A stretch of 64,000 bases of DNA from Ruficoccus amylovorans (GTDB lineage Bacteria > Verrucomicrobiota > Verrucomicrobiia > Opitutales > Cerasicoccaceae). Of the stretch, positions 3,420-31,907 are shown piece by piece (the stretch's first letter is position 1; the number at the start of each line of letters is the position of its first letter). Position numbers and translations under genes: made by a program. Under the pieces are notes generated by a model. That model did not search any database and was not told the origin of the DNA. It saw nothing but the letters and a program-made list of their open reading frames with translations. The stretch lies in NCBI RefSeq assembly GCF_014230085.1, contig NZ_JACHVB010000012.1, forward strand, positions 1 to 64,000, read 5' to 3'.

Positions 3420-3764
3420 ATGGAACAGCTGGAGCGTACCCGCACCCATGCGGCGACCGACGCCAAGGGCCAGGCCTTTGGTCTCTCGGGCAACCTTTTC
3501 CTCTATCCGGTGATCGGTGTGGTGGCCGCGCTGGCCACCGTCATGCTCTGCTTTATGGTGCTTGGTCTGCCCCTGTTGCTCTCGCTCGGGGCGGGCCTGC
3601 CGGTCCTGATCCTGCCGACCTTGTATGTCCTCTTACTGCGGCACAACAAGCCCCGTGGCTATGACCGGGACTGGTTCAGCAACGTCACCTCGGCAGGCTT
3701 TTCCTATGTCAAAGCCGTCCAGCCCCTCAACCCGCGCCACCACAGGGAGGATTGCCATGAGTAG
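3420..3764 (+). CDS. VirB3/TrbD-like inner-membrane protein
   Basis: A 114-residue protein. The ATG at 3420 is preceded by AAGGTG; a GTG one codon upstream is an alternative start. Two adjacent membrane helices (about residues 27-50 and 52-72) form a hydrophobic hairpin near the N terminus, followed by a soluble tail rich in Arg, His and Asp. This is the layout of VirB3/TrbD proteins, which sit in the inner membrane and work with VirB4. The 3' end overlaps the start of the virB4-like gene by 8 nt, so the two are translationally coupled. The assignment rests on topology and position. Confidence 0.6.
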   Translation: MEQLERTRTHAATDAKGQAFGLSGNLFLYPVIGVVAALATVMLCFMVLGLPLLLSLGAGLPVLILPTLYVLLLRHNKPRGYDRDWFSNVTSAGFSYVKAVQPLNPRHHREDCHE

Positions 3765-6399
3765 CGGAGCACCCAACGGTTGGTTCGCGGACGGCATGCT
3801 GATCTTCGGTTCGCTGGAGAGTGGTTGCCACGTGGCGAAAGGTTTCACGGTGGAGACACCGGATTTGCGCGGGGCCAGCGTGGGCGTTCGCAATGAATAC
3901 AAGCGCAAGATTCGGCAGTTACTCAGTTCGCTCGGACCGACCGAGTCCATGCAGGTGCAGTGGACCTGCGGCAATGATTACCGCAAGGCACTGACGCGTT
4001 ACTATCAGGATACCCAGCAGCACTGCCGGGACGACTACGTGAAGGCGGTCCGCAACGAGCGCTTTTCCCGCTACTGGCAACGGATGCTGGAACGCAAGCT
4101 CCGGCGCGAGTACCTGATTGTGTTCCTGTGCACGCGGATGGAAAAGTATTCGGGCAACCTGAAAACCAAGTCCGGTTTGCGGACCTTCTACGAAGCGCAG
4201 CTCGACAGCCTGCGGATTCATTTTCAGGAGCGCGAACACCACATCCAAAGCGTGCTCGGATCAGATACGACCGTCACGCCGATGGACGATGTGGCGCACT
4301 ACGCCACCTGCAAGCGTTTCCTCAATCCGTCGCTTTTGGAAAACATCGACTACGATTATGCCCGCACTTTTGACGAGCGATACACCATTCAGGAAAACTG
4401 CCTGCACTGCGACATCCGGCCCGCCGACAAGGCCGCGCTGGAATTCGACGGATACTATCATTCGGTTTTTACCGTGCAGCGCTGGCCGAGCGAAACGTAT
4501 CCGGGCATCATCCATCACCTGACGAGCCTCCCGTCACTCGACTACCAGATAACGGTCAACCTGAAACCGCTCAATGTGAAGCAGGTTATCCGCAAGGAGG
4601 AAAAAGAGGCCGATCGCTTGAAGAATGAACACCGCCACAAAGGGCGGCAGTCGGACGCCACCGCGATTGCGAAGAAGGAGACAACCATTGATGCACTGGC
4701 GCAGGGCTATACCAAGCCTTTTGCCGTGACCTATATCATCCGCACGTGGGCACGTGATCTCGACACCCTACGGGCCAAGACCGCCGAATTAAAACAGGCG
4801 ATCAGCCAGATGAATGGAGCCGAGATTTACCAGAACACCTTGTTTGCCTCCAGCCGGAAGCTGTTCTTCGCCTCATGGCCGGGCTGGACGGGCTCCAGCT
4901 ACACCCACCGTGACGAATACGCTGAGGACGGTTATCTTGCCGACCTGTTGCCGTTTTCGGCTACGTTTACCGGTTATCTCGAAGAGGCCGAAGCCATCTA
5001 CGACGGCAACCAGCACAACATTGTCGGGATCAATACCTTCATCGGCGGCACGCCGCAGCATACGGTGCTCTTCGGGATCAGCGGCGCGGGCAAGTCGGTC
5101 TTCATGGAGGATTTGCTCACGCAGACCGCGCACCGCTTCGCCTATACGGTCATCATTGAGGAGGGGCTCTCGTATCAGAATTTCACGACATCGCTGGGCG
5201 GGACGCCCATCATCATTGAGCCGGACAGCGATCTGGTCATTAACTACCTCGACACGGTGGGGATGCCCCTGACCCGTCAGCAGGTTTCCTCCGGGGTGGC
5301 GCTGATCTCCCGCATGATCGGCGTGTCCGATTCGCAGGAGCGCCAGCAGGTGCGGCAGGCTCAGATCGGCCACTACATCGACCTGCTTTACCGGGATCAG
5401 TTCGAGTCGTGGAGCAAGCGGCACCGCGAGCAAATGCCCGAGGTCCGCAAGATGGCTTGCGCCACCTACCTGTGGAAACAGGAAAAGATCAAAACGAAAA
5501 CCAGCTTCGTGGAAGCGTTTAGTCTCTTTCGTGAGCTGCTCAAGGCCGAAGATGACGAGGCGTTGGAGTTCTACGACACTATCCCAAGCGAGCGGATTGT
5601 GCAGTTCGCCAAACATGCGGACACCAGCGACTACGTGAAAGATACGGCTTTCGCATACTTCAAGCCGGAGGACTACCCGGTTCATTCTCAACTAATCGAA
5701 CTGATGCGCTTCGGGCGCAGCTCGTATCACCCGAAGGCCGAGATGGATGAACTGGCCACGCTGATGGCGGCATGGACGGGCACTGGCAGCTACGGGAAGC
5801 TTTTCGACGGGACGACCAACATCAACCTGCGCAGCCAGATCGCCCACTTCGAGTTGGGGCAACTGGGCGATGAAGCGGTTGAACTGCGCACAGCGGCGGG
5901 ACTGCTCATTACATCTTTCGCCCGTCAGCACATCATTTCGCTGCCGCGCAAACTGCGCAAGCGGATGATCTTTGAGGAAGTCTCCCGTTTCCTCGATGTG
6001 CCCGGCGGAGAGAAAATTGTCTCTGAAGCCTATGCGCAGCTCCGCAAATTCTCATGCTGGACCTGCTCTATCGTCCAGCAATACGAGCGCTTCAAAAGTT
6101 CGCGGATTCGCGCCGTGGTCATGGGCAACTCCAAGCAGCATCTTTTGATGCGCCAGCTCGACAAGGCCGACATCCAGGAAATCGCCCGTGACACCGGACT
6201 GCCGCAAGCAGTGCAGGAGGCGATCATGGATTACCCGCTTGTTGAGCAGCAGGCCGAGGGGCACAAGTTTTCGTCCATCTGCTATTATGCGCCGGGGGCG
6301 CGTCCGCCCGTGTGCGGGACCGCGCTCAACATTCAGGCGCAGACCTATTACCAGTCCGTTGCTACGGCGGCGGCACAACCGGAGGTTTCCGTTTCATGA
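3757..6399 (+). CDS. VirB4/TrbE-family conjugation ATPase
   Basis: The 880-residue ATPase that powers pilus assembly and substrate transfer at the cytoplasmic base of the type IV secretion channel. The start is the ATG at 3757, with AGGGAGG seven bases upstream; in-frame codons before it run through the virB3-like gene. The N-terminal half holds the CagE/TrbE/VirB region. Walker A is GISGAGKS (440-447) and Walker B is KRMIFEEVSRFL (E740/E741), where a Glu-Glu replaces the more usual Asp-Glu. Late motifs such as SIVQQYERF and VVMGNSKQHLLMRQLDK match the helicase-like C-terminal lobe. It is full length and appears intact. The next gene starts in an ATGA overlap. Confidence 0.93.
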   Translation: MSSGAPNGWFADGMLIFGSLESGCHVAKGFTVETPDLRGASVGVRNEYKRKIRQLLSSLGPTESMQVQWTCGNDYRKALTRYYQDTQQHCRDDYVKAVRNERFSRYWQRMLERKLRREYLIVFLCTRMEKYSGNLKTKSGLRTFYEAQLDSLRIHFQEREHHIQSVLGSDTTVTPMDDVAHYATCKRFLNPSLLENIDYDYARTFDERYTIQENCLHCDIRPADKAALEFDGYYHSVFTVQRWPSETYPGIIHHLTSLPSLDYQITVNLKPLNVKQVIRKEEKEADRLKNEHRHKGRQSDATAIAKKETTIDALAQGYTKPFAVTYIIRTWARDLDTLRAKTAELKQAISQMNGAEIYQNTLFASSRKLFFASWPGWTGSSYTHRDEYAEDGYLADLLPFSATFTGYLEEAEAIYDGNQHNIVGINTFIGGTPQHTVLFGISGAGKSVFMEDLLTQTAHRFAYTVIIEEGLSYQNFTTSLGGTPIIIEPDSDLVINYLDTVGMPLTRQQVSSGVALISRMIGVSDSQERQQVRQAQIGHYIDLLYRDQFESWSKRHREQMPEVRKMACATYLWKQEKIKTKTSFVEAFSLFRELLKAEDDEALEFYDTIPSERIVQFAKHADTSDYVKDTAFAYFKPEDYPVHSQLIELMRFGRSSYHPKAEMDELATLMAAWTGTGSYGKLFDGTTNINLRSQIAHFELGQLGDEAVELRTAAGLLITSFARQHIISLPRKLRKRMIFEEVSRFLDVPGGEKIVSEAYAQLRKFSCWTCSIVQQYERFKSSRIRAVVMGNSKQHLLMRQLDKADIQEIARDTGLPQAVQEAIMDYPLVEQQAEGHKFSSICYYAPGARPPVCGTALNIQAQTYYQSVATAAAQPEVSVS

Positions 6400-6830
6400 T
6401 TACACGCGAGTCATACGCACGAACCATTCTCTTGCTCATGGTGACGGGACTGTTCTCCGGTTGCGCCAGCAATGAAGTCGGTAAGAGTGCCACCGTAGTC
6501 GGCGGTAGCGCCTTGGGCGCAGTCATCGCCAATCAGGCGTCCGATGGGGATGCGGCTTGGACAACGGGCGGGGCCGCAATGGGAGCTGTCGCCGCGTTAG
6601 GGGCTAATGCGATGGCCAAGGAAAACGAGCGTATTGCTTACCGAGATGGCTACGAGGCCGCCCTCAACCAGAGCGTCAAGCAGCAGTATTGGATCATCCA
6701 GAACCGCCAGAAGGAAGACGAATTTAGCGAATCCGAGAACCCGGGCACATTCGTGCCCGTCGTCCTCCCCGCGCAGGAAATAAACGGGGTCATCCAAGAG
6801 GAGCGCGTCATTTACCTCAAAGCCAAGTAA
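6396..6830 (+). CDS. Glycine-zipper lipoprotein of the T4SS operon
   Basis: A 144-residue predicted lipoprotein whose ATG overlaps the virB4 stop codon (ATGA). A hydrophobic signal peptide (ARTILLLMVTGLFSG) ends at a lipobox Cys (GLFSGC). A glycine-zipper region follows (VVGGSALGAVIANQASDGDA, then TGGAAMGAVAALGAN, residues ~30-70), a pattern that inserts into or packs against membranes. The C-terminal half is soluble and charged. Lipoproteins at this position in conjugation operons often stabilise the outer-membrane core (VirB7/TrbH/TraV role), but no family signature allows naming. A second lipoprotein gene ends the same operon. Confidence 0.65.
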   Translation: MITRESYARTILLLMVTGLFSGCASNEVGKSATVVGGSALGAVIANQASDGDAAWTTGGAAMGAVAALGANAMAKENERIAYRDGYEAALNQSVKQQYWIIQNRQKEDEFSESENPGTFVPVVLPAQEINGVIQEERVIYLKAK

Positions 6831-6833
6831 GCC

Positions 6834-7637
6834 ATGAAAGCATCATTCATTTTAATCTGCCTACTGCTTGCGCCTGGCGTGCAGGCGCAGTGGATCGTTT
6901 CCGACCCCGGACACACCGCCCAGACCATCGCGGCGACGTTGCAGGACGCCGCCGAGCACGCCGAGGTCCTGCAAGAGTGGCAACAGCAATACGAGCAGTT
7001 GACGCAACAGATCGAAACCATGACGGAGCAACTGGACGTGCAGACCACAATCAAGGAATGGACGGGCAATCCGGGGACGGTTCTTTTGCCTTCGCTCGAT
7101 GTGCTCGGCGTGGAGGATTTCATGGACGATCTCAACCACGGCATCCCGTGGACGACGATCATCGACGAGGCCAGCGGAACCGAGAGCCTGAATGAAACAC
7201 ACGGAGGGCTTTATGTGCAGGTGAGAACGGAAACCGTGACCGGCGAGTCCGTCACGGTCAAAGACGACACGTTGAAGCCCTATGCTGTCGTGGACGATCA
7301 ATACACCAACTATGTGACAGCCTCCGATGAGATCGACGCCCGCTTAAAGGAGTTGCAGGAGAACCAGACTCTCACGCTGGAAGAGTTGAAAAACGCCACC
7401 ACCGATGCGGAGGTCCAAAAACTCTCGGCCATCGTTAACGCGCAGAACGGGCAGATCGCATTACTCATTTCCGAACGCGAGAAGCAGTACCAGCAATATG
7501 CCGCCTTGAAAGCTCTGAATGAAAACCAGGAAGCTAAGGCCAATGCGGTTTCCGTGCAGGCCCAGTTGAAGGATCAGCACGCTGCCTACCGCTCGCTCTC
7601 GGATTACCTGAAAACTCTGACCAACACGAATCCCTAG
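6834..7637 (+). CDS. VirB5/TrbJ-like periplasmic T4SS protein
   Basis: A 267-residue secreted protein with a clear signal peptide (MKASFILICLLLAPGVQA, cleavage before Gln). The mature start WIVSDPGHTAQTIAATLQDA, followed by a long Gln-rich helix (EVLQEWQQQYEQLTQQIETM), matches the usual opening of TrbJ/VirB5 proteins, which begin with a VxDPxN-type motif and helical bundle and form a minor component at the pilus tip. A second coiled-coil stretch (about residues 170-245) covers the C terminus. It lies three bases after the glycine-zipper lipoprotein gene in the same operon. Overall length fits TrbJ. Confidence 0.65.
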   Translation: MKASFILICLLLAPGVQAQWIVSDPGHTAQTIAATLQDAAEHAEVLQEWQQQYEQLTQQIETMTEQLDVQTTIKEWTGNPGTVLLPSLDVLGVEDFMDDLNHGIPWTTIIDEASGTESLNETHGGLYVQVRTETVTGESVTVKDDTLKPYAVVDDQYTNYVTASDEIDARLKELQENQTLTLEELKNATTDAEVQKLSAIVNAQNGQIALLISEREKQYQQYAALKALNENQEAKANAVSVQAQLKDQHAAYRSLSDYLKTLTNTNP

Positions 7638-7650
7638 AACATCCACCACT

Positions 7651-8115
7651 ATGAAACTGATCTATTTGCCGCTCCTTCTGGCCGTGCTCGCCCTGTGCGT
7701 CTGTTCGGACGCGCCCAATGAAACCACTATCACCGTGCACGAGGACGCCAAACCGGTCCGAACCATTCGCATCATCGTGGAAAAGGGCGACGATGTGGTC
7801 ATCGAGGACCCGTACATCGAAAAAATCGAGGCCTTGTCGGCTGCTTACATGAAAGAGCGCTCACGCTACATTCAGGAGCGCCAAAGTATGACCGACGAGG
7901 AGCGTCGTGCCTTCGGCGATCTGCGTCGAAGTACGCACCAACGTGTGTCCGAACTGCAATCCATGCGAAAGCAATTCATTCTCGCCCAGATGAAGAAATA
8001 CAACGGAGTGAACTTTGTTTTTGAAGACGGCGAGGGCAAGACGCCGGGGGAGTCGACCATGGATTACCTGAAGGGTTTCCACTCAGACCCGAAAGCGAAT
8101 CCTTCCGAGGAATAA
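7651..8115 (+). CDS. Exported small protein of the T4SS operon, function unknown
   Basis: A 154-residue protein not recognised as a known family. The first 20 residues form a hydrophobic signal (IYLPLLLAVLALCVCSD) with a Cys at the likely cleavage point, so it may be a lipoprotein. The mature part is highly charged: a short beta-rich segment (TITVHEDAKPVRTIRIIVEK) then a helical region rich in Arg, Glu and Gln (about residues 55-120). It lies 13 bp after the TrbJ-like gene and 22 bp before the VirB6-like gene, in the place where entry-exclusion proteins such as TrbK or Eex are often found. That role is a positional guess only. Confidence 0.5.
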   Translation: MKLIYLPLLLAVLALCVCSDAPNETTITVHEDAKPVRTIRIIVEKGDDVVIEDPYIEKIEALSAAYMKERSRYIQERQSMTDEERRAFGDLRRSTHQRVSELQSMRKQFILAQMKKYNGVNFVFEDGEGKTPGESTMDYLKGFHSDPKANPSEE

Positions 8116-8137
8116 CCTGCTAAGCTGACACGCTGCC

Positions 8138-9241
8138 ATGAACCTGATTGGTCCCATTACGATGGAAAACTTTGAAAGCTCAATTCTTGAGCTTCAGGGT
8201 ACGCTCCTTTTTGTTGCCTATTTCATTCTCGTAGCAGGGCTGATCGTTCGGATCATGCGCATCTCGGATACCGGTGGCGACATGGTGGCCATGACGAAGG
8301 CCGTTTTTATCGGTTTCTTCCTTGTCGCGCTGATGGCCACAGGCCGCTACTGGTTTAACGCGATTGATCAGGGGATGTATGATGCCGCCGACGTCATCAA
8401 TACCGACTTTGGAAGTGAGCCCTATGCTGTTACGGATGCTCTGATCAAAACCATCGACGAGGATCCCGAGGCCGAAGGGTGGGGCGTCGAGAGGATCGTG
8501 AACTCCGTCTATCTGAGCATCGTTTACGGGATTTCCAAACTGGGCATTACCGTGGCGGCGCTCTTTCAGGTGCCCTTCTACATCCTTCAGTATGTGCTTA
8601 AGTGGCTCGGATTCCTCTTCCTCCCAATTGGGCTAGCACTGTTCATGTTTCCTTCGCTGGCCAATATTGGCGTGAAGCTCATCGCCAATATGCTGGCGGT
8701 GATGGCGTGGCCCATAGGCTTTGCCATCACCAATCTCGCGGCGATGGGACTTGTGGAAGATTTTGCTGATGCCTCCACCTTTTCCGGGAATGACACGGGC
8801 GCCGCGCTCTACATGATGAGCTTCGGCTCGCTTATCATGGGGCTGATCGCTGCGCTGATCCTCGTCATCGGTACGCTGGCCACACCAACGATCATGTTTA
8901 TGATCTTCGCCAGTGGTACTGGTTTGCAGGCCCTCGCGGGATCGGCCCTGCGGACCGCTGCTGTGGCGACTTCTCGGGGAAGTTCTTCGCCCGGTGTCAC
9001 GCTATCCCCCTCCGCCGTCAAGCCCACTCAAGCCACTCCGGTGAGTGCTCCCCAGAGCGACCCTGGACTGAGGCCACCTGTCTCGTCATCGGTTCCCGTT
9101 CCTTCTGGTGCACCGCAAGCTGCCGTACCGGCGATGGATAATCCGCTGTTGCCCGTCAATCCCCATGATCCCTCCGGCAGCCAACTGGCCGCGAAGCTTT
9201 ACGCGCAGGCGTCACCACCCAAACCGCATACGCAGATATGA
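8138..9241 (+). CDS. VirB6/TrbL-like polytopic membrane protein
   Basis: A 367-residue multi-spanning membrane protein that would form the inner-membrane part of the translocation channel. Hydrophobic helices are visible around residues 22-42, 54-72, 125-170 (two), 185-205 and 225-260, with a central periplasmic loop containing AIDQGMYDAADVINTDFGSE. The C-terminal 90 residues are Pro/Ser-rich and soluble, as in TrbL and TrbP relatives. Position between the VirB5- and VirB8-like genes is canonical. Its stop overlaps the next ATG by four bases (ATGA). Confidence 0.75.
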   Translation: MNLIGPITMENFESSILELQGTLLFVAYFILVAGLIVRIMRISDTGGDMVAMTKAVFIGFFLVALMATGRYWFNAIDQGMYDAADVINTDFGSEPYAVTDALIKTIDEDPEAEGWGVERIVNSVYLSIVYGISKLGITVAALFQVPFYILQYVLKWLGFLFLPIGLALFMFPSLANIGVKLIANMLAVMAWPIGFAITNLAAMGLVEDFADASTFSGNDTGAALYMMSFGSLIMGLIAALILVIGTLATPTIMFMIFASGTGLQALAGSALRTAAVATSRGSSSPGVTLSPSAVKPTQATPVSAPQSDPGLRPPVSSSVPVPSGAPQAAVPAMDNPLLPVNPHDPSGSQLAAKLYAQASPPKPHTQI

Positions 9242-9924
9242 GTCACGACGAACACGAGATGCCGGAGCGTTCCTCCGTTGATCCCGCCAAGGCGCGGGCG
9301 CATGGCAAGCAGCTTCGCGCCCGCAACGCCTTCCATCCGTTGAAATTGTTCACGGATAATGCCTGGGCGGCGCGGCTGTGGTTTTTGATCGCGCTCATGC
9401 TGTTGGGGTGGGTGGTGATTCAGCCCTTCTTCATCATCAATGCCTACCGCACCCGCGAGCGCGTGGTTATCATGGATGGGGCGGGAACGTATTCCATCGC
9501 CCCCACGCTCGATTTTGAAGAGGCTACTCACCTGCACGAGGAGTTGGCCCTGTGGGCAACCTACGCGCTCTTTTCGCAGAACCCGAACGGTTTCGATATG
9601 CCCGAGCTTTTGGACAAGCTGTTTCTGAATGACCCGCTTAAAAAAGCCCGGCAGTTACATGCGCGAGCCGAAAAGGAACTGCGCGAAAAGGCCATCCACC
9701 AAAAGGTAGAGGTCTTTGAAATCAAAGTGCTGCAAACGCGGGGCGATCAGGTGTTCACCCAAGTAAAAGGGCAGTTGATCCGCACCGGCAGCTTCGAGGG
9801 AAAAACCTTCGTGGAAGACCCGCAGTTCACGCTCACTCTCGTGATGTATCGCAATCCCAATATGCTTGAAAACAAACGCTACCCGCTGGCCGTGATGTCC
9901 TTTGAGGAAAAAATACTGTTGTAG
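9238..9924 (+). CDS. VirB8/TrbF-like bitopic T4SS assembly protein
   Basis: A 228-residue protein with a basic cytoplasmic N terminus (about 45 residues), a single membrane helix (WFLIALMLLGWVVIQPFFII) and a periplasmic domain of about 160 residues. The order (RTRERVVIMDG, long helices with LHARAEKELREK, then strands VFTQVKGQLIRTGSF and FTLTLVMYRNPN) fits the NTF2-like VirB8/TraE fold that nucleates the secretion channel. It starts in an ATGA overlap with the VirB6-like gene and is followed five bases later by the VirB9-like gene. Primary sequence similarity is weak, so fold and synteny carry the call. Confidence 0.65.
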   Translation: MSHDEHEMPERSSVDPAKARAHGKQLRARNAFHPLKLFTDNAWAARLWFLIALMLLGWVVIQPFFIINAYRTRERVVIMDGAGTYSIAPTLDFEEATHLHEELALWATYALFSQNPNGFDMPELLDKLFLNDPLKKARQLHARAEKELREKAIHQKVEVFEIKVLQTRGDQVFTQVKGQLIRTGSFEGKTFVEDPQFTLTLVMYRNPNMLENKRYPLAVMSFEEKILL

Positions 9925-9928
9925 TCCG

Positions 9929-10819
9929 ATGAAGCTGAACCGCATTGTCATCCTGTATTTCTTGTTGCCTCCTCTTTGCCATGCGGAGGAGGACCGCTAT
10001 AACCGCGAGGTCATCAAGGAGTATGCCTTGAGCCCGCAGACGGTTTACAACATCCCCATCGGCAACACGCCGACCACAGTTACCTTTCCGGGGCCGCTCC
10101 AGTCCATCGACGGGGCCAATGTGGGCAGCGTTCCCAAGGACAACCCACCCGTGCTCTTAAGCTACGTGGCCGGACAGTCTTTCTTTTCCGTACGGGCCAT
10201 GCAGCCCAATGCGCGAGGAGCGCTCAATGTGGTTTATCAGGGGCAGACCTACGCTTTTAATTTCTATCACCACGAGGACGTCGTGCCGTACCGCACGGTG
10301 CGGCTTATGCAGTCCGATGAACTGATGGCGGACAGTGCCGCCTTGGGGCCGGGGGCGATTACCATTCGCCGGACCACGCCGAACGTCCTGCTGGATTTGC
10401 TCGACCGGGCCAAGAGCTATCCGCTGGTCCAGCGGGCCTATCCGGGGATGTTAGATGAGGAGGTTGATTACCGTGTTCCCGAAGGGCTCACGACCGAGTA
10501 CCGCGATTACACGGCGACCATTGAGGAGGTCATGCGGTTTGTCCGCTATGACACCCTCGTATTCAGGATTTCGTTACACAACACCTCGGAAGAGGACATC
10601 TATTATCAGCCGCAGATGCTAGCTATCCGCATCGGCCAGAACCTCTATTATCCATCCATCGCGGACGCTTCCGGTATCATCCCGGCCCAGTCCGACAGCG
10701 TGGCTTACCTGGCCATCACCGGCAAACCCAACGGGGAAGCCGCTCACCTCAGCGTTCACAACCCCTTTCAGGTCATCGTCACTCGGATCACCTACCCGGC
10801 CAAGCTCTTCATTCCTTAA
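9929..10819 (+). CDS. VirB9/TrbG-like outer-membrane core component
   Basis: A 296-residue secreted protein. The ATG at 9929 gives a clean signal peptide (MKLNRIVILYFLLPPLCHA, then EED). The following all-beta region has strands around TVYNIPIGNTPTTVTFPG and FFSVRAMQPNARGALNVVYQ, and resembles the N-terminal half of VirB9/TrbG. The C-terminal half (LVFRISLHNTSEEDIYYQPQ) looks like an immunoglobulin-like beta sandwich. Within the secretion channel this protein joins VirB7-type lipoproteins and VirB10 in the outer-membrane ring. It is located seven bases before the VirB10-like gene. The C-terminal half differs from classical VirB9, so this may be a lineage-specific version. Confidence 0.6.
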   Translation: MKLNRIVILYFLLPPLCHAEEDRYNREVIKEYALSPQTVYNIPIGNTPTTVTFPGPLQSIDGANVGSVPKDNPPVLLSYVAGQSFFSVRAMQPNARGALNVVYQGQTYAFNFYHHEDVVPYRTVRLMQSDELMADSAALGPGAITIRRTTPNVLLDLLDRAKSYPLVQRAYPGMLDEEVDYRVPEGLTTEYRDYTATIEEVMRFVRYDTLVFRISLHNTSEEDIYYQPQMLAIRIGQNLYYPSIADASGIIPAQSDSVAYLAITGKPNGEAAHLSVHNPFQVIVTRITYPAKLFIP

Positions 10820-10826
10820 ACGCACC

Positions 10827-11879
10827 ATGATCAAGTTTCTCAATTCGCCCTTGGGCAATGTCGTGGCCGCCGTGCTGTTCATCGGCGGCATCGGCGGGCT
10901 CGTCGTGTTGCATACGATGGACAAGGGGGAGGCAGACTTCACTACGCCCGAGGAGGCATACGACTATAAGCCCGACGTGTACAAACGCGACATTCCGCGC
11001 TTTAAAATGCCCGGTGCGGTCGTGACTACCAATGAGGAGGAGCTTACCGCAGAAAACGCTGAGAGTCCGGAAGAACCGGAGTCGCCGCTGTCGCGGCCCC
11101 AGCAGGCCCGCCTGAATGAGGAGAAGACTAAGGCCAAAGGCGGACTGCCGCTAAATCTCTTTACCGGCGCGGTTTCAGATCAAGAAGAGGTGGTTTCACC
11201 GGATTACGCCCCTTTCGGGCGGCTCATTCCCTGTGAACTGATCATCACAGTGGAGAGCAGTTCGATGGACACGCCCATTATCGGCCTTGTCACCGAGGAC
11301 GTGGTTCATGCCGGAAAGGTCATCATCCCTGCTGGGGCGGAGGTGCATGGACGGGCCAGTGAGGGGAACACCCGCGACCGCATTTCCGCCACGGGCACCT
11401 GGAATTTTGTCTGGCGCACGCACGAAGCCTTGAACGGAACCGAGTTGACCCTTCAGGGAATTGCGCTCGATCGCGAGTATAATTTCAACACCGGCTTGTG
11501 GGGCTTGCAGGACGGCTCAGCCGGACTCAAGGGCTACCTTATCAAGAGTGACGACTGGAATGAGATCAAGCTATTCGCGGCCACGTTCCTTGCCGCCGCC
11601 ACCCAGGGCTTCAAGCAGTACGACGACTTCATTACGGACACGGGATCAGCGGTGCAGATTGCCGAAAGCTCCGTTGGCAATGCCGCGCTGGATGGGACGA
11701 CCGCCGTCCTCGAAAAATACGCCGAGCAGATTCAGGCGGCCATCGAACGCGACGGCTTCTACATCCGGGTTCCGGCAGGGACGCAGTTTTATGTTTACGT
11801 CACGCAGACCATCGACGCGGCGGAAGGCTCGCGCGGAAACATCAGCAATCATGACATCTGGAATTCGAAAACAAACTGA
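10827..11879 (+). CDS. VirB10/TrbI-like channel scaffold protein
   Basis: A 350-residue protein with one N-terminal membrane helix (VVAAVLFIGGIGGLVVLHTM), a variable Pro/Glu-rich linker (residues ~35-110) and a C-terminal beta-barrel domain. Diagnostic segments are GRLIPCELIITVESSSMDTP, PIIGLVTEDVV, GKVIIPAGAEVHGRA and the closing VPAGTQFYVYVTQTI. All correspond to the VirB10/TrbI/TraB barrel that spans from the inner membrane to the outer-membrane pore. It is complete. Its last 29 bases overlap the start of the following lipoprotein gene in another frame. Confidence 0.85.
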   Translation: MIKFLNSPLGNVVAAVLFIGGIGGLVVLHTMDKGEADFTTPEEAYDYKPDVYKRDIPRFKMPGAVVTTNEEELTAENAESPEEPESPLSRPQQARLNEEKTKAKGGLPLNLFTGAVSDQEEVVSPDYAPFGRLIPCELIITVESSSMDTPIIGLVTEDVVHAGKVIIPAGAEVHGRASEGNTRDRISATGTWNFVWRTHEALNGTELTLQGIALDREYNFNTGLWGLQDGSAGLKGYLIKSDDWNEIKLFAATFLAAATQGFKQYDDFITDTGSAVQIAESSVGNAALDGTTAVLEKYAEQIQAAIERDGFYIRVPAGTQFYVYVTQTIDAAEGSRGNISNHDIWNSKTN

Positions 11880-20049: not shown

Positions 20050-20193
20050 ACGTTCTGTTTGGCATTTTTTAATGCATGATCCTAACCGTATCTTACGTAA
20101 TGGATACGGATGGCATGAAGAGATGGCTATGGCCATAGGCTATGCCTATATTTCCAGGGGTTAGATAAGGAAATTACGTATCCGCGTGGGGCT

Positions 20194-20410
20194 GAGAACC
20201 TGCTTTCCTGCCCGCAGGAAAGGGGATTATGCCAGCCCTCCGCTCCCAGCCTTCAAGGTCGTATTTTTGCGTTCGCTTGTGCAGCTTCGGCGCGGGCTTC
20301 TCGCTTCCGCTCTCGGCGCAAAAATCTCCACCTTGACGGCGGCCTACGGCCATCGCTTTGGGCACGCTCTCGCTCGCTCGCCGCTTGGCAGGGGAAAGCA
20401 GGTTTTCATG
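20194..20410 (+). repeat. Large imperfect palindrome upstream of ardC
   Basis: The 393-bp gap 20050-20442 holds a nested inverted repeat. The outer arms are AACCTGCTTTCC (20198-20209) and GGAAAGCAGGTT (20394-20405). The inner arms are CCTTCAAGGTCGTATTTTTG (around 20251) and CGCAAAAATCTCCACCTTGA (around 20319). At the left edge a tight 9-bp stem, CTTTCCTGC/GCAGGAAAG (20203-20222), competes with the outer arm. The whole unit could fold into one long hairpin. From memory, similar sequences lie upstream of ardC genes in other mobile elements. A structured leader, single-strand promoter or transfer-origin role is possible. The rest of the gap (20050-20193) shows nothing clear. Confidence 0.55.
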
Positions 20411-20442
20411 CCGAAGACCGTTTAACCCGAAAGGAGCCAACC

Positions 20443-21291
20443 GTGAAGAAATCCGCTTATGACCGTGTGACCGAGCGTATGCTTGAACTCTTGGAGAATG
20501 GGGTTTGCCCGTGGCGCAGACCGTGGAACCGTGTCGGGGGCCGTCCCCGAAACTTTGTCAGTGATCGCCCTTACTCCGGCGTGAACTGGTTTTTGCTGGA
20601 GGCGATGGCCTTTGATCTGCCGTGGTTCATGACCTTTAATCAGGTCAAGGCCAAGGGCGGGAAGATCATCAAGGGCAGCAAGGGCATTCCCGTGGTTTAC
20701 TGGGGAACCTGGGAACGTGAAAACGAGGACAGCGACGACGAAGGTGAAACCCGGAAAATTCCTTTCCTGAAAGCCTATGTGGTTTTTAATGCCTGTCACG
20801 TCGAAGGGGTTGAGTTCCCCGAACTGCCCGAAGTCGAGCCGCTGGACTTTTCGCCCATCGACGCCGCCGAGCGGGTGATTGAAGGCTGGAAGGAAGGCCC
20901 GGAGATTGTGCACGGCTACCAGCACGCCTGCTACATTCCCGCCACCGATGAAATCCAGCTCCCGCCCAAGACGCGTTTTTCGTCCTGTCAGGAATATTAC
21001 GCCACGCTCTTTCATGAGCTAGGCCATAGTTGCGGGGCCAAGCATCGACTGGACCGCAATCTAGAGGGAACTATCGGCGACGCCGACTATTCCCGCGAGG
21101 AACTGATTGCCGAGATGACCGCCGCTTTCCTCTGCGCCCACTGCGGCATTGATAACAGCGTGATCGAGAATTCCGCCGCTTACCTTCAGGGCTGGATTCG
21201 CATCCTGAAAGGTGACAGCAAGCTGGTAGTCACTGCCGCCAGCCAGGCCCAGAAGGCGGCGAATCTGATCTTAGGCGTGACTGGGGAGTGA
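20443..21291 (+). CDS. ardC: ArdC-family antirestriction protein
   Basis: A 282-residue protein that starts at a GTG nine bases after AAGGAG. The N-terminal DUF1738/ArdC ssDNA-binding domain (residues ~5-120) has the typical VTERMLELLENGVCPWRRPW and PYSGVNWFLLEA. The C-terminal MPTase-PolyVal metallopeptidase-like domain carries HELGH (191-195) and the later Glu in REELIAEMTAAF. ArdC protects incoming single-stranded DNA from restriction during conjugation in related plasmids. Length and both domains are complete. It follows a large palindromic region, consistent with early expression upon entry to a new host. Confidence 0.95.
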   Translation: MKKSAYDRVTERMLELLENGVCPWRRPWNRVGGRPRNFVSDRPYSGVNWFLLEAMAFDLPWFMTFNQVKAKGGKIIKGSKGIPVVYWGTWERENEDSDDEGETRKIPFLKAYVVFNACHVEGVEFPELPEVEPLDFSPIDAAERVIEGWKEGPEIVHGYQHACYIPATDEIQLPPKTRFSSCQEYYATLFHELGHSCGAKHRLDRNLEGTIGDADYSREELIAEMTAAFLCAHCGIDNSVIENSAAYLQGWIRILKGDSKLVVTAASQAQKAANLILGVTGE

Positions 21292-21819: not shown

Positions 21820-21914
21820 GCGTGTGGCAGTTTCTAGGGATTTGATCGCTTGAGCCAGTTTGGGGAAATGGGAAGCAGCTTTACTTTTTGGCCAAAAGAT
21901 ATACGGTTTCAGAT

Positions 21915-22145
21915 ATGAGTACGACCACGATGCGCATCACCAGCGAGGCCTTAGCTCTTCCGGAAGACGAGCGGTTGCAGGTGTTTTTGCAGCTCGCATC
22001 AAGCTTGCCGAATGAGAAGGCGCAGCTTGCAGAAAGCGCCCGTCGGGCTAGGGAAATGAGTTCTGGCAAGGTGGTTCCGATGACCGAAGAGGAATTCGGA
22101 GGCAAAATGAACGCGCTCAAAGAGCAATTTCGCAAGCAGGCTTAG
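21915..22145 (+). CDS. Antitoxin of addiction-module component family
   Basis: A 76-residue protein from the ATG at 21915. It resembles the putative addiction module component family (TIGR02574/DUF2281-like): the start RITSEALALPEDERLQVFLQ with the Leu-Pro-x-Glu-Glu/Asp-Arg motif, then a disordered C terminus with MTEEEFGGKMNALKEQ. Such antitoxins pair with ParE/RelE toxins. Its stop codon overlaps the GTG start of the toxin gene by one base, so the pair is translationally coupled. TA pairs commonly stabilise integrated elements. Confidence 0.8.
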   Translation: MSTTTMRITSEALALPEDERLQVFLQLASSLPNEKAQLAESARRAREMSSGKVVPMTEEEFGGKMNALKEQFRKQA

Positions 22146-22447
22146 TGGCCAGAACAGTAGAGTTCCACCCGCTTTTCAGCGAGGATGTTGAAGCGCAGGC
22201 ACGCTACCTGCAAGAGGAAGCCGAGTTGGGAGAAGCCTTTCTCGAAAAGGTGGAGGAAGCGGTTGCTGCGGTCAAAGCCGAGCCGATGCACCATGGGTTC
22301 CTCTATGGCAGCACGCGCCATATCATTTTACGGAAATTCCGCCGCCATATCGTCCATTACGAATACTTTGAGAAGGAGGATTTAATCCGTTTCTACGGAC
22401 TCTTTCACGGTTCTGAAAATCCCGCCCGGTGGTGGTCAAGGCTTTGA
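22145..22447 (+). CDS. RelE/ParE-superfamily toxin
   Basis: A 100-residue ParE/RelE-fold toxin that begins with GTG in TAGTG overlap with the antitoxin. Family features are VEFHPLFSEDVEAQARYL at the start, a long first helix pair, then strands RHIILRKFRRHIVHYEYF and DLIRFYGLFHGSENPARWW, with the RKFRRHIVHYE wording usual for ParE-type toxins. It would either inhibit gyrase (ParE) or cleave mRNA (RelE); the sequence looks more ParE-like. Nine bases after its stop the convergent unknown gene ends. Confidence 0.88.
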   Translation: MARTVEFHPLFSEDVEAQARYLQEEAELGEAFLEKVEEAVAAVKAEPMHHGFLYGSTRHIILRKFRRHIVHYEYFEKEDLIRFYGLFHGSENPARWWSRL

Positions 22448-30344: not shown

Positions 30345-31907
30345 TCACTCGCCGGTTTGCGTATTTTTGACTTTTGGGACGGGATGGATGACTTGCTGTG
30401 CGTCTAGCAGGCGTTTCTTCAGACGTTCGTAGGGGATGTCTTGAAGATCGAATTTGTGTTCGATTGCCAGGCTGGCGGCCTCGACCGCTGATTCTGAGAG
30501 GATCATGAAGACCGGCTCCATGCGGATCGACCCAAAGGCGATATGAGAGGCGGACAAGCAGAAAGGGACCAGCAGGTTGCTGATCTCGCCACGGCTGGGA
30601 ATGATGCTGCGATAAGAGATCGGGTAGGGCGGACCGGAGTGGATCTGCACGTCACCTTCGTTTAATACCTTTCCGTCTATGACGATACGCCGGCAGTTGT
30701 GCGAATCCATCGTGTAGGCGGCCAGGCCGACTGGGTCTTCGACTCGAAGGCGCCCGGTGCAGTGGTGCTCGTTCATGACAAGGTCGCTGACCATGCGCCG
30801 TGCCTCACGGACATAAAGGGAGTGAGAGAAGTTTTCGGTCTCGGGAAACTGGTCCTCCGGCCAGCCGAATTCGCGCAGTTGGCGGCGGAAGTTTTCATCA
30901 ACGCTGGGGTCGGTGGACCAGAACCACAACAGCCCTTTGGTCCACTGGACATGGGACTGGAAAATCTTCTCACGGGTCGCGTAGTCTGCGTCGGGAAAAT
31001 CGTGGTTCATGCCGACATAGTCGGTGGAGATCGCTCCCCAGTTGTTGACGTCGTAGATGCTGTTTATCAACGCATCGAACTTGCGGAGGCTGGGGATGTG
31101 GCCAGCCCGGCAATAGCGGGCGCATAGCTCGTAGTCATCACGGTTGTAGTGTTCGGGTTCGCTGAAGGGAATGCGCCGGGCGGGATCATTGGTCATGCAC
31201 AGCCGGAAGTTGTAGGCCTGCACGCAGCGGTCTCCTGCCCCTTGTTCGTAGGAGCCCTCATTGATGCCGGGAAGCAGTCCGCTGGAGGGGCGCCCCTTGA
31301 TTCTATAGGGATCCACATCGTACTCGAATTGATGTTTCCTCAGCAGTTGTTGGCCGTTCCAGGTTTCTCCATAGACGCTGTTGCTTTCACGTCCAACGGT
31401 ATAGCTCACCCCGGACTGGGCCATGAGGTCGCCTTCGTAGGTGGCGTCGATAAATTGACGGGCTTTTACCTTGATTCCGTTTTCAGTGCTCAGAGAAACA
31501 ATCTTCCCGCCTGCTGTTTCCACCGACTCAAGGAAGCTCTCCAGGTAGCATTCGATCCCTTGTTCATCCAGCCATTCGCGATAGACGGCTTCGGCCGCGC
31601 TTGGCTCGAAGCGCCAGAGTTCTGGTTGGTTGTACTTGAGGCCGATACGGCGGTAGAACTCGCGCGCGAGCCCCCCGATCGCAAACTTATTGCCAATGTC
31701 GGTGTAGCCAAGCCCACCGGCCGTCAAGCCCCCGAGGTGGTAGCCAGGCTCAAGTAGCGCGACACTCAGGCCCTTGCGTTTGGCCGCGATGGCCGCGATT
31801 ATGCCGCCGGAGTTGCCACCGAATATGCAGATGTCAACGTCCAGTGTAAGCGCGTGTCGGTGGTTGGGGGTATGATAATATCTCAGAAGAGTGGAACAGG
31901 TTTCCAT
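30345..31907 (-). CDS. FAD-dependent oxidoreductase (FAD_oxidored family)
   Basis: A 520-residue flavoprotein. The start is placed at the ATG at 31907; the open frame continues 28 codons upstream but would cross the operator and overlap the divergent regulator. The FAD-binding Rossmann motif is DICIFGGNSGGIIAAIAAKR, with GLSVALLEPGYHLGGLTAGG, QFIDATYEGDLMAQSGV and LLVPFCLSASHIAFGSIRME typical of PF12831. This family is frequent in polysaccharide-use loci of Verrucomicrobia, Planctomycetes and Bacteroidetes and is thought to oxidise sugars or their derivatives; the substrate is unknown. No signal peptide, so it is cytoplasmic. It is transcribed divergently from an AraC-type regulator that probably controls it. 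Confidence 0.88.
   Translation of the reverse strand: METCSTLLRYYHTPNHRHALTLDVDICIFGGNSGGIIAAIAAKRKGLSVALLEPGYHLGGLTAGGLGYTDIGNKFAIGGLAREFYRRIGLKYNQPELWRFEPSAAEAVYREWLDEQGIECYLESFLESVETAGGKIVSLSTENGIKVKARQFIDATYEGDLMAQSGVSYTVGRESNSVYGETWNGQQLLRKHQFEYDVDPYRIKGRPSSGLLPGINEGSYEQGAGDRCVQAYNFRLCMTNDPARRIPFSEPEHYNRDDYELCARYCRAGHIPSLRKFDALINSIYDVNNWGAISTDYVGMNHDFPDADYATREKIFQSHVQWTKGLLWFWSTDPSVDENFRRQLREFGWPEDQFPETENFSHSLYVREARRMVSDLVMNEHHCTGRLRVEDPVGLAAYTMDSHNCRRIVIDGKVLNEGDVQIHSGPPYPISYRSIIPSRGEISNLLVPFCLSASHIAFGSIRMEPVFMILSESAVEAASLAIEHKFDLQDIPYERLKKRLLDAQQVIHPVPKVKNTQTGE

Follow-up and report, generated by a model that had tools for sequence, protein, structure and literature searches.

A conserved nested hairpin in front of ardC and other establishment genes of Verrucomicrobiota ICEs is a candidate single-strand promoter

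A long palindrome directly in front of ardC on a conjugative element raises the question of whether it serves expression of this anti-restriction gene from entering single-stranded DNA, DNA transfer itself, or some other function. Such a palindrome is found in the stretch analyzed here (the window), the first 64,000 nucleotides of contig NZ_JACHVB010000012.1 of Ruficoccus amylovorans, in which secretion genes of an ICE at 3.6-11.9 kb are followed by other genes and then by ardC. The original prediction, made from the letters of the DNA, had described nested outer and inner arms and a competing 9-bp hairpin, and had proposed either a promoter active on single-stranded DNA or a part of oriT. The outer arms (20193-20208 and 20393-20408) are 16 nt long with a complementarity of 94%, the inner arms (20249-20268 and 20321-20340) show a complementarity of 75%, and a perfect 9-mer (20263-20271 with 20317-20325) belongs to the inner stem. 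In the competing hairpin (20203-20211 with 20214-20222) 9 of 9 positions are paired around a loop of 2 nt. The GTG start codon of ardC at 20443 lies about 38 nt past the outer arm. In the following, the 5' arm of the outer stem is called A, its distal partner C and its alternative local partner B (Table 1).

Table 1. Positions of the nested hairpin, its parts and the neighboring genes in the window.
Feature	Positions	Strand	Basis or remark
Whole conserved element (nested hairpin)	20197-20405	none	Homology with relatives begins and stops near the outer stem
Segment A, 5' arm of the outer stem	20198-20212	+	Partner 20387-20404; both-sided changes in 5 of 14 pairs
Segment C, 3' arm of the outer stem	20387-20404	+	Overlaps the conserved CGCTCGCCGCTTGGCAGG motif (20375-20392)
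Segment B, local alternative to C as partner of A	20214-20222	+	Forms the competing hairpin 20203-20222
Second stem, GCCC	20235-20238	+	Partner GGGC at 20360-20363; both-sided changes in 2 of 4 pairs
Inner stem, 5' arm	20249-20271	+	Partner 20317-20340
Inner stem, 3' arm, includes CTCCACCTTGAC	20317-20340	+	Arm pairing and covariation
Proposed -35 box TTGAAG, within the inner stem	20251-20256	-	Minus-strand profile
Proposed -10 box CATAAT, TGn before it, 19-nt spacer	20226-20231	-	Minus-strand profile
Ribosome-binding site AAAGGAG	20430-20436	+	Read from the sequence
ardC, served by the window copy	20443-21291	+	Pfam ArdcN 9.3e-33, MPTase-PolyVal 5.9e-40
Type IV secretion genes of the ICE that carries the element: TraG P-loop ATPase, DUF4141, TrbI/VirB10	3625-11879	+	Gene matches

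Copies of the element were sought by a DNA search of 54 genomes, that of R. amylovorans included, and with a covariance model built on 15 sequences, which matched the window copy at 20197-20421. The search led to 18 full-length copies of about 205 bp each in 10 genomes: 15 were located in seven of ten genomes of the same family, a second family contributed two (2 of 43 genomes) and a third family one (1 of 200 genomes). In a sample of the phylum, 6 of 387 genomes were positive, one of them by a partial match only. Up to four copies occur per genome, and the R. amylovorans genome holds a second copy, likewise upstream of ardC. The copies of genomes G001 and G003 were identical, which leaves 17 distinct copies and, with the exception of this pair, upstream homology ends near the outer stem.

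Three sequences from Acidobacteria (L021-L023), also situated upstream of ardC, possess an outer stem of 12 bp (perfect in two of them), a second possible partner of the outer arm, and the loop motifs GCTTGTGCAGC and GCTTCCGCG in common with the Verrucomicrobiota element. These shared motifs suggest that the Acidobacteria and Verrucomicrobiota elements are related. Several other matches were not counted. The short-motif matches L102, L103 and L110 had no outer stem when inspected by eye; around CGCTCGCCGC they display a shorter block, CTCAAGGTAGT..CTCCACCTTGACC..CGCTCGCCGCTTGGCAGG, which lacks the outer stem and occurs in another family (G684, G676). The distant matches L100 and L101, the former without the 5' half, were also left out. 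L108, L090 and a 22-base match in G013 were treated as chance matches. Among viral contigs, the CGCTCGCCGC pattern matched once and the loop pattern nine times, and these matches were taken as chance since by eye no such element was seen in their sequences.

When both polarities of the window copy alone were folded, a z score of -2.13 was obtained for the minus strand (4 of 200 shuffles equally good) and of -0.97 for the plus strand (36 of 200), so that this copy by itself folds better than chance by a modest margin, and it is because of the comparative evidence across copies that the structure exceeds chance. In the 15-copy alignment, 93.8% of the stem cells were paired and 17 of 36 pairs had changed on both sides, compared to 6.1 on average in 500 shuffles, none of which matched this covariation, and to 3-8 in slid registers; each of the five helices holds at least one such pair. 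For the outer stem (A:C) the copies' own pairs beat swapped ones, with 0 of 5,000 permutations as good among 17 copies, and the same result (0 of 5,000; 17 copies) was obtained for the competing hairpin (A:B). Arm A thus coevolves with each of its two partners, C and B. Both predicted structures are therefore borne out: the arms of the nested palindrome lie where they were expected, an alignment of copies upstream of ardC and of other genes reveals stems that are conserved and covary through compensatory changes, and the competing hairpin is present and covaries across copies. In the inner stem, no double change was seen in the 15-copy alignment at the pairs forming TTGAC, several neighboring pairs having one, so that the sequence itself may be constrained there, too.

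With DNA parameters, the minus fold was more stable than the plus fold in 16 of 17 copies, and in 13 of 17 after correction for composition, a correction under which it was not favored in the remaining four copies nor in two of the three Acidobacteria elements. In the case of F Frpo1 and Frpo2, the minus strand is likewise the better folder. Wobble pairs were also considered as a strand test and amounted to 20 G-U versus 10 A-C, one ambiguous pair contributing 10 of the G-U; by stem, the outer one had 18 G-U versus 2 A-C and the inner one 7 A-C versus 1 G-U. With no clear preference for either strand, strand inference from wobble pairs was dropped. Upstream regions of ardC in general had z scores below -2 in 12 of 31 cases, compared to 6 of 62 random windows and 15 of 60 upstream regions of other genes. 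The excess over the latter control is small, and a claim of structured ardC leaders across all phyla was not pressed; the Acidobacteria case stands independently of such a claim, as it has its own alignment. An ardC of Sphingomonas (L030 2740-2990) has a nested palindrome of its own (arms of 13 bp, 55 nt upstream of the start) and one relative of 73% on the Novosphingobium plasmid NZ_CP017076.1 (907626-907825).

The genes behind the copies were then compared. In 17 of the 18 copies, G2c being the exception, a start codon is located 33-41 nt past the last outer-stem position of the model, where the counted start is an internal ATG of a longer frame in G2a, G2d and G7b, opens a frame of only 49 codons in G41, and where the drawn stem of G7b ends some bases earlier than the model position. 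The gene behind the element is ardC in six copies (ArdcN matched in 6 of 6), ardA in two (PF07275 matched in both) and a DUF3560 gene in three, of which two were scanned and matched and the third (G003) was assigned by the sequence it shares with the G001 gene. Three further copies precede a small gene with the signature MKPN-YYRRPD, for which no Pfam match was found, and four copies precede other genes. Judged by location, the element has the anti-restriction genes ardC and ardA as well as the DUF3560 gene directly downstream.

A promoter scan with a tool that allows spacings of 16-18 nt found no site. By eye, the minus strand displays the pattern TTGACR, 19 nt, TGn, CAnnAT. Both strands of the 17-copy alignment were scored with a promoter profile and spacers of 15-20 nt after this site had been seen. 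Using assumed weights and column shuffles that do not preserve dinucleotides, the minus-strand site ranked first with a mean of 7.13 bits over 17 copies (runner-up 2.96), a value reached by 0 of 150 column-shuffled alignments (maximum 5.85). The -35 box reads TTGACA or TTGACG in 10 of 17 copies, TGG stands before the -10 box in 15 of 17, and A at position 2 and T at position 6 of the -10 box are present in all 17. The spacer measures 19 nt in 14 of 17 copies, longer than the 17 nt that is usual, and no copy has T at position 1 of the -10 box. Over 17 minus-strand folds, the -35 box had a mean unpaired probability of 0.18 and the -10 box one of 0.57 (mean percentile 0.78; 0.91 in the window copy), the -10 site being open to a similar degree in plus-strand folds (0.52). 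In double-stranded DNA the site faces away from ardC, and it would face ardC in the folded minus strand alone.

In sequences outside the alignment, the same site ranked best in all three Acidobacteria elements (TTTACA-19-TATGTT or TATCCT) and in L101 (TTGACG-18-TATGGT). At the expected place, L100 has no high-ranking site and L102, L103 and L110 lack the minus-strand site; in the shorter block of L102 the plus strand holds the top-scoring site. When applied to 11 Frpo-family sequences, the linear promoter profile placed the best site outside the Frpo stem, and the method is thus unvalidated.

Which strand enters the recipient was approached through the relaxase. TrwC (MOBF) relaxase genes are present in nine of the 10 genomes with the element, none being found in G777. 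On all seven contigs that carry both, the relaxase gene is divergent from the gene behind the element, although these genomes are related and not independent. Upstream of 11 of 14 relaxase genes, a hairpin CCTTA/TAAGG is followed by GTAAGGCGT on the relaxase-sense strand, L144 having GTAAAGCGT in its place. This hairpin-plus-nic motif is present in 11 of 11 members of the main relaxase clade and on six of the seven element contigs; the divergent relaxases L141-L143 are without it, and L142 shares its contig with copy G5c. As background, the nic-like pattern gave eight matches in 278 kb, three of which are the relaxase-upstream sites themselves. The motif was matched to what we take to be the letter forms of the R388 and F nic sites. 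At MOBF nic sites as described in the literature, a hairpin lies nine bases before the cut, and GTGT in most cases, or GTCT in R388, stands just before the cut (PMC4176350). With this layout, the nic-like motif indicates that the transferred strand would run through the relaxase gene and would be the template strand of ardC or whichever gene lies behind the element. The opposite polarity, which had first been read from the relaxase upstream region, was withdrawn after the relaxase-sense hairpin and GTAAGGCGT had been found in all 11 main-clade members. With the motif-derived polarity the relaxase gene would be the first to enter. This order is unusual and seems to have a precedent in ICEBs1, whose sso1 is described as following the relaxase gene directly and as lying downstream of oriT too (PMC4595007), a position from which we infer that the ICEBs1 relaxase gene enters early. 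Conserved candidate oriT regions upstream of relaxases L131-L140 and L144 (for example L118 at about 15.86 kb, minus strand) also contain the inverted repeats AATNGGGNAA/TTNCCCNATT and AAACGC/GCGTTT, which flank the CCTTA hairpin and the nic-like motif.

Both ends could be proposed for one ICE only, on G005:C12, where a 27-bp repeat at 30,598 and 83,683 was taken to mark the ends of a 53-kb ICE. Its nic-like motif lies near 73.8 kb, two elements follow at about 13 and 19 kb from nic, and the secretion genes come later. The repeat resembles a tRNA 3' end by eye; in both stretches with the repeat ARAGORN found no tRNA, and the adjoining integrase-like gene matched Phage_int_SAM_1 below the curated cut-off only. 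No attachment repeat was found in the G001 stretches searched, and no second tRNA-Phe 3' end in the searched stretches of G001, G003, G007, G041, G002 and G005. A tRNA-Phe is located just past the genes behind the element in G001, G007 and G003 (L119 16966-17041, L123 5620-5695 and L064 3133-3208) and is a likely integration site in these three genomes.

On balance, we lean somewhat towards the view that the element is a Frpo-like single-strand promoter of an ICE establishment regulon. During conjugation, the minus strand of the window, which is the ardC template if the nic-like motif is read correctly, would be transferred. On entry this strand, whose stems are conserved, would fold into the nested hairpin, and the fold is predicted to offer the -35 box in a double-stranded stem and the -10 box in a partly unpaired stretch. 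Host RNA polymerase would initiate at these boxes and, leaving the hairpin at its base, transcribe ardC, ardA or a further establishment gene. Once the second strand had been made, the hairpin would be lost and the boxes would face away from the gene, so that expression would be brief. Speculatively, the A:B hairpin would unpair the stem at its base and may aid melting or switching off. The predicted single-strand promoter for ardC is thus partly upheld, in silico, as far as the conserved stems, the anti-restriction genes downstream and the fitting orientation of the sigma70-like site are concerned, in an element that is not homologous to Frpo. We entertain more tentatively, as possible but on the doubtful side, that the element represents a second, independently evolved class of single-strand promoters which spans at least two phyla (Verrucomicrobiota and Acidobacteriota), carries its own A:B / A:C switch and would flag establishment regulons beyond the enterobacteria. 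The element would allow a direct test of whether early expression from single-stranded DNA is general in conjugation, and might serve as a marker for finding unknown establishment and anti-defense genes, the DUF3560 gene and the small MKPN-YYRRPD gene behind several copies being examples.

Experimentally studied single-strand promoters are described from the enterobacterial plasmids F and ColIb-P9 (PMC11541004, PMC9849209), and in an insect metagenome and in Streptococcus islands candidates have been sought via fold and consensus boxes, as one of these reports describes (PMC11541004). Like Frpo1 and Frpo2 of F and ssi of ColIb-P9, the element is a long imperfect hairpin before leading-region or anti-restriction genes and occurs in several copies per element; its transferred strand, as deduced here, would be the template and folds somewhat better, and promoter boxes may form in its fold. 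It differs from Frpo and ssi in its hosts, which are Verrucomicrobiota, with a related form in Acidobacteriota, and in its 19-nt spacer and A:B / A:C switch. A comparison of the element with a plasmid collection of 72,556 records gave no match, and Frpo2 matches at least 5,000 records of the same collection. The element does not appear to be homologous to Frpo, with which it would share a logic without sequence kinship. The closest look-alike is EGeRS1 of the pLS20 family, described as a conserved block rich in inverted repeats, 420-750 bp long compared to about 205 bp here, that likewise lies directly before the ribosome-binding site of ardC and of other establishment operons (PMC8708921). 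Between the 17 copies and the 39-57 kb region of pLS20, the longest match was 16 nt and the best E value 0.012, and no convincing similarity, nor an identity of >60%, was obtained. The EGeRS1 authors give the transferred strand as the non-template strand, a polarity opposite to the motif-based one of the element, and state that no sigmaA promoter was found (PMC8708921). Like sso1 of ICEBs1, the element would be a single-strand signal on an ICE, sso1 being described as a second-strand origin and not as a promoter (PMC4595007). In a literature search with most subscription papers and bioRxiv outside its reach, no report of the element was found.

The near-constant distance to the start codon and the mutually exclusive pair A:B / A:C, typical of attenuators, would also be expected of a cis-acting RNA leader, in which a read-through transcript folds and the switch attenuates or gates ardC. 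The G-U excess in the outer stem agrees with such a leader, and so does EGeRS1-B, which is described as stopping read-through in native, not in reverse, orientation (PMC8708921). Nevertheless, we consider the RNA leader unlikely: it is the minus rather than the plus strand that folds better in nearly all copies with DNA parameters, the inner stem has an excess of A-C, Rfam has no family at gathering score within the element, the A:B hairpin of the window copy has no T-run after it, and a leader would leave the sigma70-like site that is conserved on the minus strand without a role. This site might instead be an ordinary promoter in double-stranded DNA for an antisense or upstream transcript; it would then transcribe into unconserved DNA, for upstream homology ends near the outer stem (G001/G003 aside) and the ORFs there are differing genes in both directions, so that nothing conserved would be transcribed, and the covarying stems would be left unexplained. 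We judge this decidedly improbable in spite of the conservation of the site.

Frpo itself is said, by the title of the 1997 work of Masai and Arai, to act in both transcription and priming. A single-strand initiation site that primes second-strand synthesis, and whose position before genes is incidental, is accordingly conceivable, also because ICEBs1 has an sso (PMC4595007). The tight spacing to the start codon in 17 of 18 copies and the recurrence of the element within a genome, every time with a gene of its own behind it, make incidental placement quite improbable, and priming may be an added function of a single-strand promoter rather than its rival. A dyad structure on a conjugative element also recalls oriT or another recombination site, and oriT had been the second proposal of the original prediction. 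That proposal has been abandoned as hardly credible: up to four copies occur per genome, copies lie 5.7 kb apart within the proposed ends of one ICE, they sit before genes, and the nic-like motif is instead found upstream of the relaxase gene.

Further genes were recognized in the window. A transposase with an integrase core domain lies at the start of the contig (53-967), and an AAA-type ATPase gene was identified by eye at 1972-2910 (GQDKAIKKACSVLQRGALKLS), relatives of which adjoin the secretion genes in G001, G002 and G005. After ardC, two small adjacent ORFs follow at 21888-22447. The first matches an addiction-module antitoxin family slightly below the cut-off, the second matches ParE_toxin above it, and the two likely form a toxin-antitoxin pair.
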